Positions 12,694 through 39,059 of a DNA stretch of 64,000 nt are shown here, piece by piece. The notes beneath the pieces were generated by a model. It saw only the letters and a list, made by a program, of their open reading frames with translations. It made no database searches and was not told where the DNA came from. The DNA comes from Nitrospira sp. (GTDB lineage: Bacteria > Nitrospirota > Nitrospiria > Nitrospirales > Nitrospiraceae): the NCBI GenBank assembly GCA_029194665.1, contig JARFXO010000001.1, positions 124,001 to 188,000 of the forward strand, written 5' to 3'. A program made the translations under genes and the position numbers. The first letter of the stretch is position 1, and every line of letters starts with the position of its first letter.

Positions 12694-13064
12694 GATGGCT
12701 GCCGTGGCCTCACCTGGTAATGCCGTCTGCGGAGAAGGTTACGCTCGTGGGCTTCTACGTCATTCTCGATCTGTGAAAGGAACCGCTCCATTGAAAAGAT
12801 TCCATCAATGAACCGTAGGGTATGACATCATGAGGAACGCGCACTGGATCATATGCCAACGGCACAAGGAATGAAAGCAGAGAACTGAGTCCCTTAAAAT
12901 GTGCCGATCCAGCGCCTACTGTGATCTCCGGTTTTGTGCCCCCGGTCGGCAGGGTAAGAAACCGCACTTCGTTGCTGAGATCAGGCTGGTGGTCAGGACT
13001 TTATCGCTCGGTCAGTTTTCACCGCTTGGACTGTCATGCTAGCTCGATGAAACGGAGGGGAACG
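12694..13064. other. no gene recognised
   Basis: A 371-bp gap between two minus-strand genes. The short frames on either strand lack recognisable motifs, and I see no repeat or clear terminator. Confidence 0.45.
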
Positions 13065-14459
13065 TTACCGTGGTGTATCCGTGAGCTTTTTCAATCGTCG
13101 GTCCAGCGAGAATCGGGTGAGGCCCAGTTGCTTGGCAGCCAAACTTTTGTTGTAGTCGGCCAGCCGTAAGACTTCTTCGATGATGGAGTCTTCGATTCGC
13201 TCCAGCGTGTGCTTGCCGACTTGCATTTCAATGCGAATCACGCGCTCAGCCCCTTGGGAAACAGACGTGGTGGTTTGCCCGACCTGTTCATGGAGTTCTC
13301 GCGGGAGATAGTTCGCCGTCAGCGTTTGTCCCGAGCAGAAAATCATGGCTCGTTCGAGGGTGTTTTCCAGTTCTCGAATATTCCCGGGATATTGATATCG
13401 CTCCAACATTGCGCGAGCTTCCGAGTCCAATTCTGGGATAGGCTTGCCGAATTCCCGTGCAAAGCGGACGATCGTTTTCCGACAGAGAGGAATAATGTCT
13501 TCGAATCGCTTACGAAGGGGAGGGATCTCAAATGAGACGACATTGAGACGAAAATAGAGATCTTCGCGAAAGGCTCCTCGTTCCACCTCTTTCTTGATTT
13601 CTCTGTTCGTCGCGGTAATGAGGCGGAAATCAGCCCCGAGATCGTCAGTTCCCCCTAGCCGCCTGAATGATCGTTCTTGAATCACCCGCAGCAGCTTTGC
13701 CTGCATCGTCAGATCGAGATCCCCAATCTCATCCAGAAACAGCGTGCCGCCTTCCGCCTTTTCGAGCAAGCCCAGCTTGCGCTGGTTGGCACCGGTAAAG
13801 GCGCCCCGTTCGTATCCGAACAATTCACTTTCAAAGAGCTCCTTGGGAATCGCCGTGCAGTTGACCCCCACGAAGGGACCCGACGCCCTCGGCCCATTGT
13901 GATGGATCACCCTTGCCAGGAACTCTTTCCCTGTTCCGGTCTCGCCCAACAGCATCACGGTAGGTTTTGGATTCTCCGCGACTTCTCGAACTTGGTCGAG
14001 CAACTGTTTCATCGCGCGGCTGTGAGCCTCGACGTTACTCAGATGGTAGCGGTTGGTCTGGCCATCAAGTTCCGATTCCAGGCGGCGGCGTAATTTTAGG
14101 ATTTCAATCGCACGGTTGACGACCTCCTCCACTCCTTCCAGATCGACCGTTTTGATCAAGAAATCGTACGCTCCCAATTTCATGGCTTCCACCGCATCCT
14201 GCACTGTCCCATATGCGGTCAGCATGATGACGAGGGCGGAGGGAGCAAGTTGACGCACGTGTTTGAGGGCATCAAGACCGCTGATGCCGGGCATCCTCAG
14301 ATCGAGCAGCACAAGCTCAGGGAGCTTGTGCTCAAGCTCTCGCAGCAACACCTCGCCGGATTCATAGCCGGTAGCGAAATGTCCTTGTCTGTTCAGCCGC
14401 TTGACGATGGCCGTGCGAATGACTTGTTCGTCGTCGACCACAAAAACGACTGTGTGCAT
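13065..14459 (-). CDS. sigma-54-dependent response regulator with complete domain set
   Basis: A 464-aa NtrC-type activator. The receiver (about 1-120) has DDE and phosphoacceptor L-L-D-L-R-M-P. The AAA+ domain (about 145-380) has GETGTGKE and a canonical GAFTGA loop. A C-terminal helix-turn-helix contains YNKSLAAKQLGLTRFSL. The conserved receiver Lys is in K-T-V-D-L rather than the usual K-P. The start lies three bases after the upstream kinase stop, so kinase and regulator are almost certainly co-translated. Its targets are not shown; candidates are discussed with the nxrA promoter. Confidence 0.93.
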   Translation of the reverse strand: MHTVVFVVDDEQVIRTAIVKRLNRQGHFATGYESGEVLLRELEHKLPELVLLDLRMPGISGLDALKHVRQLAPSALVIMLTAYGTVQDAVEAMKLGAYDFLIKTVDLEGVEEVVNRAIEILKLRRRLESELDGQTNRYHLSNVEAHSRAMKQLLDQVREVAENPKPTVMLLGETGTGKEFLARVIHHNGPRASGPFVGVNCTAIPKELFESELFGYERGAFTGANQRKLGLLEKAEGGTLFLDEIGDLDLTMQAKLLRVIQERSFRRLGGTDDLGADFRLITATNREIKKEVERGAFREDLYFRLNVVSFEIPPLRKRFEDIIPLCRKTIVRFAREFGKPIPELDSEARAMLERYQYPGNIRELENTLERAMIFCSGQTLTANYLPRELHEQVGQTTTSVSQGAERVIRIEMQVGKHTLERIEDSIIEEVLRLADYNKSLAAKQLGLTRFSLDRRLKKLTDTPR

Positions 14460-16466: not shown

Positions 16467-17639
16467 TCAATGCGCTCCCGGGAGGTCGCTACTGGTCAAA
16501 GTCTTGCCGATGGACAGCATCATCGCCCGTTCTATAATGTTCTGAAGTTCTCTCACATTGCCAGGAAATAAATACTGTTGAAGCATCGCCACGGCTTTCG
16601 GATCGATATCGGTCACCTCTTTCCCGAGTTCCAGCCCATACTTCATCATGAAGAGCTTGGCCAGGGGTACGATATCCTCGGTGCGGCTCCTGAGCGGCGG
16701 TACGACGAATTGCATCGCGTTGAGCCGAAAAAAGAGGTCCTCTCGAAAACGCCCTGCCGACACTTCCTCCTTAAGATCCCGGTAAGAAGAGGCGATCACG
16801 CGGAAGTCCCCGGAAATATCCTCGACGCCGCCGAGACGGCGAAACGTTCGATCTTGTACGATCCCGAGGAGCTTACCCTGCATCACGAGGTCGAGATCAC
16901 CGATCTCGTCGAAAAACAGCGTGCCGGTTTCCGCTTGATCCAGCAGACCGAGCTTCCTCCGTTCCGCCCCGGCGAAGGCGCCTCGTTCATACCCGAACAG
17001 GTCGCGTTCGAACCGCATGGAGGAAAGAGAGGTGCAACTGATCCTCACAAACGGCCCCTTCGCGCGCCCGCTGTTATGATGAATGACGCGCGCTAAGAAT
17101 TCTTTCCCAGTGCCGGTTTCTCCCATCACGAGGATGGGCATATTCGGGTTCTGAGCCACTTCCCGCACCTGGACCAGCAAGGCTCTCATCGCCGGGCTCT
17201 GTGCGATCAAGTTGCCCAGTTGATATTGATGGGCTTCGTGCTCGATGGTGTAGGATACTCGCCGCTTCAGCAGAATATGCTCAAGAGCGCGCTTGACGAC
17301 CGGCTCCAGTGTTTCAAGATCGACCGTTTTAATGAGAAAATCAAATGCCCCGAGCTTCATGGCTTCAACCGCATCCTCTACGGTTCCATATGCGGTCAGC
17401 AGGATGACGAGGGCGTCGCAGCCTTTGGGACGAAGCGCTTGCAGAACCTCGATCCCGGTCATGCCGGGCATCTTCAGGTCGAGCAAGATCAAGTCCGGCA
17501 CATCCTCTTCGACCGCGGCCAGGAGTTCTTCGCCGGATTGAAACGACCGAACCCGGTGCTGCATACGAGAAAGCAGTTTGTCGAGTGCGTTGCGAAATGC
17601 AGCTTGGTCGTCGACGACGAAAATACTCGCTTGCATCAT
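16467..17639 (-). CDS. EBP-like response regulator without DNA-binding domain, GAFAGA loop
   Basis: A 390-aa protein with an intact receiver (L-L-D-L-K-M-P) and AAA+ domain (GETGTGKE, REDLFFRLN), but it ends right after the AAA+ lid at L-T-S-S-D-L-P, with no helix-turn-helix. The sigma-54 contact loop reads GAFAGA: the Thr central to sigma-54 contact is Ala (codon GCC). The preceding segment is also altered, with E-R-D-L-F-G where E-S-E-L-F-G is usual. It is closely related to the complete EBP at 13065 and sits upstream of the kinase. It might titrate phosphate, form mixed hexamers or be degenerating. Start ATG 17639 follows GAGAGG. Confidence 0.88.
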   Translation of the reverse strand: MMQASIFVVDDQAAFRNALDKLLSRMQHRVRSFQSGEELLAAVEEDVPDLILLDLKMPGMTGIEVLQALRPKGCDALVILLTAYGTVEDAVEAMKLGAFDFLIKTVDLETLEPVVKRALEHILLKRRVSYTIEHEAHQYQLGNLIAQSPAMRALLVQVREVAQNPNMPILVMGETGTGKEFLARVIHHNSGRAKGPFVRISCTSLSSMRFERDLFGYERGAFAGAERRKLGLLDQAETGTLFFDEIGDLDLVMQGKLLGIVQDRTFRRLGGVEDISGDFRVIASSYRDLKEEVSAGRFREDLFFRLNAMQFVVPPLRSRTEDIVPLAKLFMMKYGLELGKEVTDIDPKAVAMLQQYLFPGNVRELQNIIERAMMLSIGKTLTSSDLPGAH

Positions 17640-17827
17640 GGGAGAGCCTCTCATGGCATGCTACTGTATGCGAAGTTACGCTGCAAGGTGTTGACGACGA
17701 CCACTTTGTGGAAGGGAAATCGATGACATTCGGTAGGGACAGGCACCCTGTGACTAAACCGAGAACTTGCGACCCTACGACATCGGCTGAGAACTTAAAG
17801 TGAAGTCCAATGCCTCACAAGCGAGCC

Positions 17828-33581: not shown

Positions 33582-34871
33582 CTACAGCCAGGTTACCCGT
33601 TCGGCCGGCCGGATATAGATGGGCTCTTCGACTTGAATGCGGGCCACTTCTTTCCCCGACTTATTGAAGCCCAACACCGTATCGTTGTACATCTCGAACC
33701 GCTTCCCGTGAATCTGGGTTTCGAAGACTTTCGGCCCCGGAATGACATCGTACCGGAAGATGATCTGCTGGCTGGCGCGCCAGAGCTGAAGTACAGCCAA
33801 CAGTTCCCGACTCGGCACCAGATACTTTTCAATGGCATTGTCCACACCAGGCCCAAACATCTGCCGGGCATAGCCACGGGGGGAATGCCGGGGCGGGATG
33901 TAGTACCCATTGGGCTCGGTCCCCCACTGCGGATACAGCGGCAAGGCCACTTGCTCGACCCGGATGGCATAGTAGAGCGGATGCCACCGGTCTTCGGCCC
34001 AGAGCCCATCCTCGCCGATCCGCACCAGGCTCTGCATCCGGATCTTGCCCACGCAGGCCGCCATGCAGCGCGTTTCCATCGGTTCGCCGCCGGTGAGCGG
34101 ATCCTTCCCTTCGATCCGAGGATAACAGGCGATACACTTCTCGCTGACCCGCGTCGTCCCCCGATACATGGGTTTTTTATAGGGACATTGCTCGACACAT
34201 TTCTTATACCCTCGGCAGCGATTCTGGTCGATCAGGACGATCCCGTCTTCCGGCCGCTTGTAGATCGCCTTGCGCGGACAGGCCGCCAAGCAGCCGGGAT
34301 AGGTGCAGTGATTGCAAATGCGTTGAAGATAGAAGTAGAAGGTCTCATGTTCCGGGAGGCTGCTGCCGGTCATTTTCCAGGGTTCATCCCGAGAGAAGCC
34401 GGTCTTGTCGATGCCCTCGACCAGGGCGCGCATCGAGGTGGCCGTGTCTTCATAGATATTGACGAACCGCCATTCCTGGTCCGTCGGAATATAGCCGATC
34501 GCGGCCTGGCCCACTTTGGCCCCGGCATCGAAAATCGTCATCCCTTCGAACACGCCGTAGGGGGCATGGTGCTTCCGTCCGACCCGGACGTTCCAGACCT
34601 GCCCACCCGGATTGACCTGCTCGATCAGCTGCGTGATCTTCACGTCGTAGAACTGGGGATACCCGCCGTAGGGCTTGGTTTCCACGTTGTTCCACCACAT
34701 GTATTCCTGGCCTTTGGAGAAGAGCCAGGTCGACTTATCGGCCATGCTACAGGTTTGACAGGCCAAACAGCGATTGATGTTGAACACAAAGGCAAACTGC
34801 CACTTCGGATGCCGTTCCTCGTAGGGATACAACATCTTGCGTCCCAGCTGCCAATTATAGACTTCAGGCAT
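33582..34871 (-). CDS. nxrB: nitrite oxidoreductase beta subunit (Fe-S electron transfer)
   Basis: A 429-aa protein that passes electrons from the molybdenum subunit through Fe-S clusters. Four ferredoxin-type Cys groups are visible: CLACQTC (35-41), CNHCTYPGCLAACP, CRGYKKCVEQCP and CIACYP with a later CMAAC. They fit three [4Fe-4S] and one [3Fe-4S] cluster as in the NarH family. It has no signal of its own, so export together with the Tat-bearing NxrA is expected. The start has AAGGAG eight bases upstream. Spacing and strand place it in one operon with nxrA. Nitrospira NxrB is a common phylogenetic marker, and this sequence fits it end to end. Confidence 0.97.
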   Translation of the reverse strand: MPEVYNWQLGRKMLYPYEERHPKWQFAFVFNINRCLACQTCSMADKSTWLFSKGQEYMWWNNVETKPYGGYPQFYDVKITQLIEQVNPGGQVWNVRVGRKHHAPYGVFEGMTIFDAGAKVGQAAIGYIPTDQEWRFVNIYEDTATSMRALVEGIDKTGFSRDEPWKMTGSSLPEHETFYFYLQRICNHCTYPGCLAACPRKAIYKRPEDGIVLIDQNRCRGYKKCVEQCPYKKPMYRGTTRVSEKCIACYPRIEGKDPLTGGEPMETRCMAACVGKIRMQSLVRIGEDGLWAEDRWHPLYYAIRVEQVALPLYPQWGTEPNGYYIPPRHSPRGYARQMFGPGVDNAIEKYLVPSRELLAVLQLWRASQQIIFRYDVIPGPKVFETQIHGKRFEMYNDTVLGFNKSGKEVARIQVEEPIYIRPAERVTWL

Positions 34872-34977: not shown

Positions 34978-37900
34978 TCAGACTTTAATTTTAATATGCT
35001 CACCTTTGAGCCACTTGATCATAAACTCGTTTTCTTGACCCGGCGTGAAGCCGGTCCGCACCGGTTCCCACGGCCCACGACCCCCGATGCCGCCGTCTTC
35101 CGCCTTGGTGATGCGGATGAGACATTCCTTCGGCACGGTATTGACCGCATGGTGGTCGATTTCGAACCCCCACTTCATCCGGAGCCCGTTCGAATATTTA
35201 CCGGGGAGCGAGTCGGTTTGATGCATCGGCATGAGCCAACTGCGCGTAAAGGACTGTTGCGCGCCGTACCGGAAGTTGGACTGGTAGCCGGTATCGATCG
35301 CGATGGCGCGCCCGTCCGGTCTCGTTTCATGACCCTTGACCGACTTCGGCGTCGAGACGAAGGGTGCATGCTTGGCCATCGTGACATGGTACGGATAGGA
35401 CGGATTGTATTTCGCGCGAATCATCAACCGCGCGACCTTGTAGTAGGGATCGCTCGGCTTCCAGCCGCGGTAGGGACGGTCGACAGGATTACCGTCGATG
35501 TACACATAGTCGCCGTCGTTGATGCCGCGGTCTTTGGCCGCTTGCGGATTGATGTGCACTTGATGTTCGCCGACACCCGGCGTCCGCTTGTCCATGCGGT
35601 AGGGATCGCCGAAGTTCGACTCGTAAATCTGTACCCAGTCGTTCACCGACCACTGACTGTGGACCCGATGCCTGGTCTTGGGGGTCACGCAGTAGAACTG
35701 GTACCCCTTCTCCCACAGGGGGTTGCTATGACGCTTGATCTCAGCCCAGGACAGCTTAATGTTCCGAATTGTCTTGTCGTCGTGGTGCTGGGCCGTGATG
35801 GGAATGCCATAGTCGTCCGGCCGCACATAGGGGTTCGTCGTGAAGATGGCGTTCGGCAAGTAGGGGGTCGCCTCCGGCCCTTCGCGATGCACGACGAAGT
35901 TTTCGCCGTACTCGATGGCTTCCGGTTCGACACGATAGGTCTCGATGCGCCCGGACCTGGTCCACATCGGTTTCGACTCGTTGGTCTCTTCCCAGAGAGG
36001 ATGTCGCGGATAGGTGCGAGTCATCACCATCCAGCCCTTTTCCGACTTCAACAGCACATCGGCACTGTAGCCGTAGAAGGTGCTGGACGCATCGAGGAGC
36101 CGTTGCGCATACACATCCACGCGATTCAGATAGACGAAATGGAAGACGTCGCGCATGCGGCCGTCCCCCGTCATCTCGGCCAACTTGGCCGCCACGCCGG
36201 CAAACGTATCCGCATCGTTCCGCGTGTCGTACAATGGTCGGATGCCTCCCTTCCAAATCTGAATCCAGGGATTCGATACCGTGGCCGTCATCTCCGGGTA
36301 GGTGAACTCCATCCAGGAGTTGGCGGCGAAGGCGATATCGTTGTGGTTGACGTCGGACGTCATTTCGATGTCCTGCGTCATCAGACATTCGATGTTCGGA
36401 TCGACGTTCCGCACCATGTCGTAATGGTGCTTGGCGTTGTTTAAGATGTTGACGTTCACGACCCACCGGATCTTACTGGGGGTCGGCATATGGGTCTTGC
36501 CGGTAAACACCTTGCGCCCATACTTTGGGGTATTGACGATCAAGGCGGTGTCGCCGTGGTTCCAGTACCCCGGCTCCTCGCCATAATAGTAATTCCGGTA
36601 TTTGATTTCCTTCCCATGGGCATTGGCATCCAGATTGAGCCGCCAGGGATCTTCCGAGAGATGCACACCGGAGCCGACCCCGGACCAGGGCGTGGCATTC
36701 CAAATCCCCACTTTGTAATTGCCGGACCAGGTATGGCAGCCCGTGCCGAATTTGCCGATATTGCCGGTCAAGGTCGTGACGAGGGCCGCCGCCCGGCCCG
36801 TTTCCGTCATATGGAAATAGTGACAGACGCCCTCGCCGTTGTGGATGGCCATCGGCTTAATCGTGCCGGAGTCGCGCGCCCAGCGAACAATGAGGTCCTT
36901 GGGCGAGCGGGTGATCTGATGGACGGTATCCAGATCGTAGTCTTGGAGGTGGATCAGATACATCTGGTAGATCGGCAGGGCGTCGATTTCGCGGCCGTTC
37001 AGCAACTTGACCCGATAGGTGCCGGTCAGGGCCGGATCGATCCCGCTCTTGTCGAAATGCCAGCCGACCTGCTCCCGATGGAGCGGCACCGCCTGTTTCT
37101 TGGCCAAGTCCCACACCATGAAGCCCCCGAGCCGCTCGATCTGATCCGATTTCAACGATTGGATCCGGCCCGAATAGCTGTGGGAAAAGTCGGGAAATTT
37201 GTAGTTGGGCACGACATCCCGCGGATCCAAATACTGCAAAGTATCCGTACGGACTAACAGCGGCATATCGGTAAACTGCTTGATGTAGTCGATGTCCTGC
37301 ATGTTCTCATCGAGAATGATCTTGCAGGCCCCGAGGAACAGAGCCCCGTCCGATTGCGGTCGCAGAGGAATCCAGTAGTCGGCGCGCGTCGCCGTCGGAT
37401 TGTACTCCGGGGTGATGACCACGATGCGGCAGCCGCGCTCGATCGATTCGAGCTTCCAGTGCGCTTCCGGCATCTTATTTTCCACGAAGTTCTTGCCCCA
37501 GCTCGTGTTCATCTTGGAGAACCGCATGTCGCTCAAATCGGTATCGCAGTTTTGGGTGCCGTTCCACCAGGGCTGCGAGGGGTCCTGGTCTCCGTGCCAG
37601 GTGTAATTGTTCCAATACCGCCCCCCTTGCGCCTGATCCGGACCGACCTTCCGGATCCAGGTGTCCAGCAACGGCAGGACGCTGTTGTTGAAACGGGTAT
37701 TGCCGTGCTTGCCGATGAGTCCGAGAATGGGCATGCCGGCGCGGTGTTTGAAACAACGCACCCCCGCCCCCTTCATCATCTCGATCATCTCCGGCGCATA
37801 GCCCTGCTCGCGCAGCCGCCGGGCCCCGGCTTCCCCGCTGTACCGTGTGCCGATGACGATCATCGCCTTCGCCGCATAGGTAAAGGCGGTGTCCCACGAG

Positions 37901-38415
37901 ACCCGCAGCATGTCGTCCAAGAAACGGCTGTCGAACTTGTACTTGCGTTTGGATTCCGGGGTCAGCTCCGGCGAGCCGTCATCCATCCACTGTTTCCACC
38001 CCTTCCGCATCAAGGGCCCCTTCAAGCGATAGGGCCCATAGACCCGGCGATGGAAGGTGAACCCCTTCAGGCACATCCGTGGGTTATGGGCAAACGTCCC
38101 ACGATTGCCGTACAGGTCTTCATACGTTTGGTGGTCGTAGTTCTGTTCCACCCGCATGACGACGCCGTTCCGCACAAAGGCCCGGATGCGGCAAGCATGG
38201 GTGTCGTTCGGGGAGCAGACCCACGTAAAGGAGGAATCATACCGGTATTGGTCATGATAGACCCGCTCCCACGAGCGGTCCGGATAATCCCCCAAGGGAT
38301 TGCCCACTTCGATCACCGGCTGCAGGGCCGTCAGGGCCAGGACTTTGTCCGCCACGGCGGCAGCCGCGACGGTGCCTGCTGAGACCTTCAAAAATTGTCG
38401 ACGTGACAAGAACAT
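34978..38415 (-). CDS. nxrA: nitrite oxidoreductase alpha subunit (molybdopterin, nitrite oxidising)
   Basis: The 1145-aa catalytic subunit that oxidises nitrite to nitrate, a member of the type II DMSO-reductase family. The Tat signal is S-R-R-Q-F-L-K followed by an Ala/Val-rich core, so the enzyme is exported to the periplasm. The FS0 cluster ligands appear as C67, D71, C75 and C115 (CSPNDTHAC, then CLKG), with Asp in place of one Cys. The probable Mo ligand Asp is D296 in LSDMRFSK. The molybdopterin dinucleotide region is in the C-terminal third. GAGGAGG seven bases before ATG 38415 fixes the start. Upstream stands a sigma-54-like promoter; downstream is nxrB. Confidence 0.97.
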   Translation of the reverse strand: MFLSRRQFLKVSAGTVAAAAVADKVLALTALQPVIEVGNPLGDYPDRSWERVYHDQYRYDSSFTWVCSPNDTHACRIRAFVRNGVVMRVEQNYDHQTYEDLYGNRGTFAHNPRMCLKGFTFHRRVYGPYRLKGPLMRKGWKQWMDDGSPELTPESKRKYKFDSRFLDDMLRVSWDTAFTYAAKAMIVIGTRYSGEAGARRLREQGYAPEMIEMMKGAGVRCFKHRAGMPILGLIGKHGNTRFNNSVLPLLDTWIRKVGPDQAQGGRYWNNYTWHGDQDPSQPWWNGTQNCDTDLSDMRFSKMNTSWGKNFVENKMPEAHWKLESIERGCRIVVITPEYNPTATRADYWIPLRPQSDGALFLGACKIILDENMQDIDYIKQFTDMPLLVRTDTLQYLDPRDVVPNYKFPDFSHSYSGRIQSLKSDQIERLGGFMVWDLAKKQAVPLHREQVGWHFDKSGIDPALTGTYRVKLLNGREIDALPIYQMYLIHLQDYDLDTVHQITRSPKDLIVRWARDSGTIKPMAIHNGEGVCHYFHMTETGRAAALVTTLTGNIGKFGTGCHTWSGNYKVGIWNATPWSGVGSGVHLSEDPWRLNLDANAHGKEIKYRNYYYGEEPGYWNHGDTALIVNTPKYGRKVFTGKTHMPTPSKIRWVVNVNILNNAKHHYDMVRNVDPNIECLMTQDIEMTSDVNHNDIAFAANSWMEFTYPEMTATVSNPWIQIWKGGIRPLYDTRNDADTFAGVAAKLAEMTGDGRMRDVFHFVYLNRVDVYAQRLLDASSTFYGYSADVLLKSEKGWMVMTRTYPRHPLWEETNESKPMWTRSGRIETYRVEPEAIEYGENFVVHREGPEATPYLPNAIFTTNPYVRPDDYGIPITAQHHDDKTIRNIKLSWAEIKRHSNPLWEKGYQFYCVTPKTRHRVHSQWSVNDWVQIYESNFGDPYRMDKRTPGVGEHQVHINPQAAKDRGINDGDYVYIDGNPVDRPYRGWKPSDPYYKVARLMIRAKYNPSYPYHVTMAKHAPFVSTPKSVKGHETRPDGRAIAIDTGYQSNFRYGAQQSFTRSWLMPMHQTDSLPGKYSNGLRMKWGFEIDHHAVNTVPKECLIRITKAEDGGIGGRGPWEPVRTGFTPGQENEFMIKWLKGEHIKIKV

Positions 38416-38480
38416 TGTGGATACCTCCTCAACGTTTAGGAACTTGAACTGGCTCGGTTTCCCTGTTTGATTTTCATATT

Positions 38481-38499
38481 TGCCGGAGAGATACCGGCA
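38481..38499 (-). promoter_or_regulatory. hairpin in the nxrA leader
   Basis: TGCCGG and CCGGCA are perfect 6-bp arms with a 7-base loop, 66 bases upstream of the nxrA start. If transcription begins at the sigma-54-like site it lies within the 5' leader and could affect stability or translation. Confidence 0.4.
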
Positions 38500-38627
38500 C
38501 TAATCTGTTTTCTCTTAATCGGAATGATGGGGAACTGAAACTGATATCTTTGGCTCATCACCGACTCGCTTGTAAAGAACGTGTCGCACATAATCACTTC
38601 ACACCCAGAGATTCAGCTGACATGTTT

Positions 38628-38643
38628 CGCAATATCCAAGCCA
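38628..38643 (-). promoter_or_regulatory. candidate sigma-54 promoter of nxrA
   Basis: On the minus strand the sequence reads TGGCTTG-GATA-TTGCG, against the consensus TGGCACG-N4-TTGCW. The -24 TGGC and -12 TTGC cores are exact and the spacing is exact; three outer positions differ. It would start transcription near 38617, giving a ~200-nt leader before nxrA. Three sigma-54 activator-type genes are in the window. Confidence 0.5.
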
Positions 38644-38935
38644 TGTTGGCCGTACGTAGCCTTTTCGCTCATTGACGTCGTAAGTTAATGAAAAGAGATC
38701 GATCTTTCGGAATTGTGTTCTAGGAGTTTGGAGACAGATCCACGGTAAGGCGTGAGTAGCAGAGGTTACAATGTTTTGTAGTTGAGGCTATGACATGCGC
38801 CGACTCGTACTTATTATGCTTTAATATCACATGATTTGCTTAACATGCTCTGTCATTAGCGATGGCAGTTACACATAGGTAACGTTTTAAACTTGGTAAC
38901 TTTCTTTTTTGCTGTACTTACAGCAGCACCCTGGC

Positions 38936-38964
38936 TTGACAGTCTTCAACGAGGTCAGTACACT
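38936..38964 (+). promoter_or_regulatory. sigma-70 promoter of tRNA-Gly
   Basis: TTGACA at 38936-38941, a 17-bp spacer and TACACT at 38959-38964. The -35 is perfect and the -10 differs from consensus at two positions. It sits 20 bases upstream of the tRNA, as expected. Confidence 0.8.
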
Positions 38965-38984
38965 CCGCATCTCAAACCTCGCGA

Positions 38985-39059
38985 GCGGGAATAGCTCAGT
39001 GGTAGAGCATCGCCTTGCCAAGGCGAGGGTCGAGGGTTCAAATCCCTTTTCCCGCTCCA
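38985..39059 (+). tRNA. tRNA-Gly(GCC)
   Basis: The cloverleaf is complete. Acceptor GCGGGAA pairs with TTCCCGC, the D-arm contains AGCTCAGTGGTAGAGC, anticodon stem CGCCT/AGGCG holds loop TTGCCAA with anticodon GCC, and the T-arm is GAGGGTTCAAATCCCTT. The CCA end is encoded (39057-39059). It stands alone, divergent from nxrA. Confidence 0.97.

Follow-up and report, generated by a model that had tools for sequence, protein, structure and literature searches.

A conserved putative sigma-54 promoter module upstream of a single nxrA copy in Nitrospira

Upstream of nxrA in a Nitrospira sp. genome lies a -24/-12 site, very probably the core of an enhancer-dependent sigma-54 promoter from which nxrA and nxrB are transcribed. 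We favour this reading because the boxes are kept among relatives while the spacers between them are near-random, because the site is biased towards the coding strand and the module to which it belongs is present in six other genera, and because the genome carries rpoN while the minus strand of the gap between nxrA and the neighbouring tRNA gene contains no sigma-70-like pair. The site falls within a stretch of 64,000 nucleotides (hereafter the window; assembly GCA_029194665.1, contig JARFXO010000001.1, positions 124,001 to 188,000, forward strand), where the features of the locus are as follows.

33582..34871, minus strand: nxrB, iron-sulphur subunit (Pfam, NCBIfam)
34978..38415, minus strand: nxrA, catalytic subunit of nitrite oxidoreductase (Pfam, NCBIfam, family-wide matches)
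38416..38617, minus strand: predicted untranslated nxrA leader of about 200 bases, placed from the position of the core
38629..38643, minus strand: -24/-12 core, TGGCTTGGATATTGC, read directly and conserved among relatives
38681..38694, minus strand: A/T-rich, IHF-like block, TTTTCATTAACTTA (61% pairwise identity among relatives)
38752..38770, minus strand: UAS2, TGTAACCTCTGCTACTCAC, consensus TGNTAC-N5-CTACTCA, probable activator site at a fixed position
38868..38883, minus strand: UAS1 palindrome, GTTACCTATGTGTAAC, probable activator site, conserved among relatives

On the minus strand, 38643..38628 reads TGGCTTGGATATTGCG, that is TGGCTTG-GATA-TTGC-G, with GG and GC boxes at the exact -24/-12 spacing, 213 to 228 bases upstream of the nxrA start codon at 38415. 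The position of the core predicts a transcript start near 38617, and nxrB is presumably carried on the same transcript as nxrA, whose product is a molybdopterin oxidoreductase with a Tat signal (Pfam). The gap that contains the core separates nxrA from the tRNA gene by about 570 bases. The tRNA gene is on the plus strand (38936-39056), with a sigma-70-like TTGACA-17-TACACT just upstream that is directed away from nxrA. At the other end, a possible small hairpin, seen by eye, takes in the nxrA start codon together with its ribosome-binding site (38400-38435, minus strand); the stem of this hairpin varies among relatives. The genome itself (4.8 Mb in 17 contigs) encodes RpoN (Sigma54_DBD, E 3.6e-58, with the RpoN box ARRTVAKYR) and two copies of nxrA whose proteins are 99% identical. 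Counting against a sigma-54 reading, the -24 box in the window is TGGCTTG and not TGGCACG, and TGGT is common among relatives. TGGCN7TTGC occurs three times in the window against 2.2 expected, which is chance level, so that only a comparison among relatives could decide.

We located nxrA in the 79 genomes of the genus and retrieved the upstream regions, 89 of which are distinct. With a weight matrix that approximates the published sigma-54 consensus, a strong -24/-12 site was found on the coding strand of 73% of these regions; the corresponding figures were 6% for the opposite strand and 9% for shuffles. One wording of the site, mostly TGGYTYGAATATTGC or TGGTTTGAATCTTGC, recurs in 46 nxrA copies, 114-288 bases from the ATG. 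There is at most one such copy per genome (46 of 64 genomes, or 54 of 64 when weaker variants with the palindrome are counted), and the 46 share an entire module, consisting of a GTTAC-N6-GTAAC palindrome, TGNTAC-N5-CTACTCA, an A/T-rich block and the core. Pairwise identity is 73% in UAS2, 61% in the A/T-rich block and 82% in the core (a value owed partly to the selection of sequences by their core), against 34% and 31% in the spacers. All 17 invariant alignment columns fall inside boxes; those in UAS2 and the TT pair played no part in selecting the sequences, and the invariant bases coincide exactly with GG and GC boxes at sigma-54 spacing.

That the site is a chance match, alike among relatives through common descent only, is extremely unlikely: the motif is indeed at chance frequency in the window alone, but decay of the spacers with retention of the boxes contradicts such an origin, and the coding-strand bias, the presence in other genera and the variable distance from core to ATG all speak against it. 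It is also conceivable that the 15-mer and the upstream elements bind other proteins and that sigma-70 transcribes nxrA from an unrecognised promoter, and the genome's second nxrA copy does appear to use a non-sigma-54 promoter. We consider this very unlikely given the exact match of the invariant bases to the sigma-54 boxes and their spacing, the fact that the minus strand of the gap shows no sigma-70-like pair, and the -24/-12 sites, differently worded, of nxrA classes that adjoin an EBP gene (see below). The preliminary description of the window had placed the two boxes about 210 bases before nxrA, where they are indeed found, and had named conservation across Nitrospira nxrA loci as a check, which bears the site out in the genus and beyond it. 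Its suggestion of sigma-54 control gains from the conserved site, the upstream elements and rpoN for one nxrA copy, and fails for the second, which lacks the site.

Sigma-54 promoters have upstream activator elements about 100-200 bases or more from the core, and an IHF-type bending site between enhancer and core is frequent, though not obligatory. In the genus, the UAS1 palindrome lies about 225-257 bases upstream of the core, and the window copy is the single perfect GTTAC-N6-GTAAC in the 4.8 Mb genome. When regions are aligned on the core, UAS2 lies about 124-130 bases upstream of it, and the A/T-rich block occupies about -50 to -36, with TTA at its end. Of 37 non-redundant regions, 31 have a TAC-N6-TAC dyad in UAS2, where 2.4 were expected, and in 41 of the 46 module copies the best IHF-like match has the same position. 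A fit to at least 8 of 9 IHF positions is seen in 20 of the 46, against 10% of shuffles. Both where it lies and how it reads, the block is similar to an IHF site, but the window copy fits at only 7 of 9. The arrangement is consistent with a mechanism in which RNA polymerase bearing RpoN would occupy 38629-38643, while a hexameric AAA+ activator would bind the palindrome and the TGNTAC-N5-CTACTCA element and reach the polymerase through a DNA loop, perhaps with the help of a protein that bends the DNA at the A/T-rich block.

In its GG and GC boxes, its -24/-12 spacing, its enhancer-like elements more than 100 bases upstream and, possibly, the IHF-like block between enhancer and core, the module resembles the glnA and nif-type promoters served by NtrC and NifA, and the genome likewise carries rpoN and NtrC-family regulators. 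It differs from them in having one target per genome, and in being predicted here from sequence. To our knowledge, GTTAC-N6-GTAAC together with TGNTAC-N5-CTACTCA is not the wording of an NtrC or NifA enhancer.

How specific the module is to nxrA can be judged from a model of its 144 bases, built from sequence only and run on the organism's own genome, on the genus and on 236 genomes of the order. The own genome gave one match with a convincing score, and the genus nearly always one match per genome, in front of nxrA. Across the order, full-length copies were found in other genera of the same family, none of which had contributed sequences to the model. We fetched 20 such loci; 18 extend to the gene, and nxrA adjoins the module in all 18 (genera g2, g5, g9, g17, g20 and g21), with the palindrome about 210 bases upstream of the core in 13. 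Partial matches in family f4, mostly to the A/T-rich half of the module, are taken as chance. One exception was seen: in G064 and G065 a second module copy precedes a gene for a 409-aa protein (L171:5563-7207 in G064:C1; G065:C20:67250). This protein looks exported and has no Pfam or NCBIfam match; a fragment resembling NxrA lies near its gene. Finally, when 84,980 species were scanned for exact matches to the pattern, 18 places belonged to Nitrospira or to uncultured records that match it, and five to unrelated taxa; we estimate about 10 matches by chance. The two-element enhancer appears to be reserved for nxrA.

Other nxrA copies have different control regions. The second copy in the same genome, and 18 like it, lack the module; the former is preceded by the following pair.

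L095:5818-8550 (G000:C2:467817-470549): kinase and LuxR-type response regulator before the second nxrA

A LuxR HTH motif is encoded directly upstream in 17 of these 19 copies, and their upstream regions contain GTAGT words and a CTAAACT box, possibly a sigma-70 -10 element; the LuxR-type pair would represent a conserved alternative control system. In a further 14 nxrA copies the gene directly upstream encodes an EBP, whose N-terminus is by eye either receiver-like or GAF-like, and these copies mostly carry -24/-12 sites with other wording. Among EBP-adjacent copies, the candidate -12 box of L050, L065, L066 and L094 is TTGTA, not TTGC; if functional, this would be an unusual sigma-54 variant. 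It follows from these upstream classes that the control regions of nxrA genes in one cell differ even where the genes are near-identical. G003 has five nxrA copies in the layout described for N. moscoviensis, and the module (G003:C1:248241-248381) stands only before the copy matching nxrA_1. In N. moscoviensis, nxr copies are differentially expressed, with nxrA_1 at 486 RPKM and nxrA_5 at 13,027, and nxrAB_1 has no regulator nearby (PMC6606698); the most expressed copy is therefore not the one bearing the module, a point against our reading of the promoter.

Which protein activates the promoter can be approached through co-occurrence, the basis of our inference here. Sigma-54 promoters require an EBP. 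The organism's own genome (G000) encodes 26 EBPs, a 2.0 Mb relative (G030) four, and three other module-bearing genomes (G169, G088 and G029) 4, 4 and 9. The four of G030 have orthologues in G000 at C1:1,135,269, C3:409,770, C3:534,774 and C1:1,131,464, and only two orthologue groups are common to the EBP sets of all four genomes. One is an NtrX-like protein, accompanied by an NtrY-like kinase; the other is the response regulator at C3:534,774, which has a membrane-anchored kinase directly upstream that is conserved beside it. This regulator (C3:534,345-535,757) consists of a receiver, an AAA+ sigma-54 interaction domain and a Fis-type HTH (Pfam), contains GAFTGA, and is below all NCBIfam equivalog cut-offs among the matches listed. 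Within the order, its DNA-binding end was detected in 162 genomes, every one of family f1, and at E 1e-12 in none of the other families. As the pair is shared by small module-bearing genomes in which the EBPs of the window have no orthologues, we regard this histidine kinase and NtrC-type response regulator (G000:C3:533,173-535,757) as the leading candidate, and as somewhat more probably the activator than not. NtrYX (C3:406,889-410,744) is a possible but less probable second candidate. In genus g14, also of f1, the pair is present and no module was detected; the pair may serve other targets, or g14 may carry a diverged module.

The EBP at C1:1,135,269, considered for its 91% identity to that of G030, was rejected since its HTH occurs also in other families, f4 among them, and since the module-bearing G006, G029, G059 and G169 have only weak matches to it. 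G030:C60 (L174:440-6765) holds an EBP-kinase-receiver-EBP cluster ending beside a gene that by eye resembles amoC, and its EBP pair is also found at C1:1,131,464-1,135,269 of the own genome.

The window encodes EBPs of its own, as had been pointed out, and these had been implied as the activators.

1037-2470: EBP (Pfam)
13065-14459: EBP (Pfam)
16467-17654: EBP with a receiver and a sigma-54 activator domain, lacking the C-terminal Fis-type HTH

Pfam confirms all three, along with a kinase, at 1-18 kb of the window; the third, without its Fis-type HTH, would not bind an enhancer in the usual way. They share a contig with nxrA, within 40 kb of it, and a real sigma-54 promoter activated by one of them might for that reason be entertained, but none adjoins nxrA, one is devoid of a DNA-binding HTH, and among the 4 to 9 EBPs of each of the module-bearing G030, G169, G088 and G029 no orthologue of any was found. 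We judge their involvement to be very unlikely; the activator is most likely encoded elsewhere than in the window.

Sigma-54-dependent regulators near nxr have been reported in Nitrospira (PMC6606698, PMC7522533), as have sigma-54 interaction domains in the genome (PMC12542776). The nxrAB loci with an adjacent sigma-54-dependent regulator (PMC6606698, PMC7522533) are like the window locus in combining nxrA with a -24/-12 site. They differ in that no regulator gene stands beside the window copy, and that elements of the UAS1 and UAS2 type are absent from the EBP-adjacent nxrA copies, whose sites also read differently. Neither these papers nor further literature searches yielded a sigma-54 promoter for Nitrospira nxr; the founding papers may contain an earlier mention.

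With the module come a predicted transcript start, two named candidates for the activator and the exact bases that a mutation should change, and none of this calls for Nitrospira genetics, since a laboratory host or an in vitro system would serve for the tests. The nxrA promoter likely ties NXR, the main energy enzyme of Nitrospira, to a signal-sensing regulator, which bears on how several NXR copies are controlled. We tentatively propose, while holding it to be somewhat short of an even chance, that in each nitrite-oxidising Nitrospiraceae genome one nxrA copy is under a near-single-target sigma-54 promoter with a dedicated kinase/regulator pair that the family has conserved, its near-identical paralogues depending on a LuxR-type pair or on adjacent EBPs. 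If this is true, NXR copies would differ in the timing of their production rather than in their activity.
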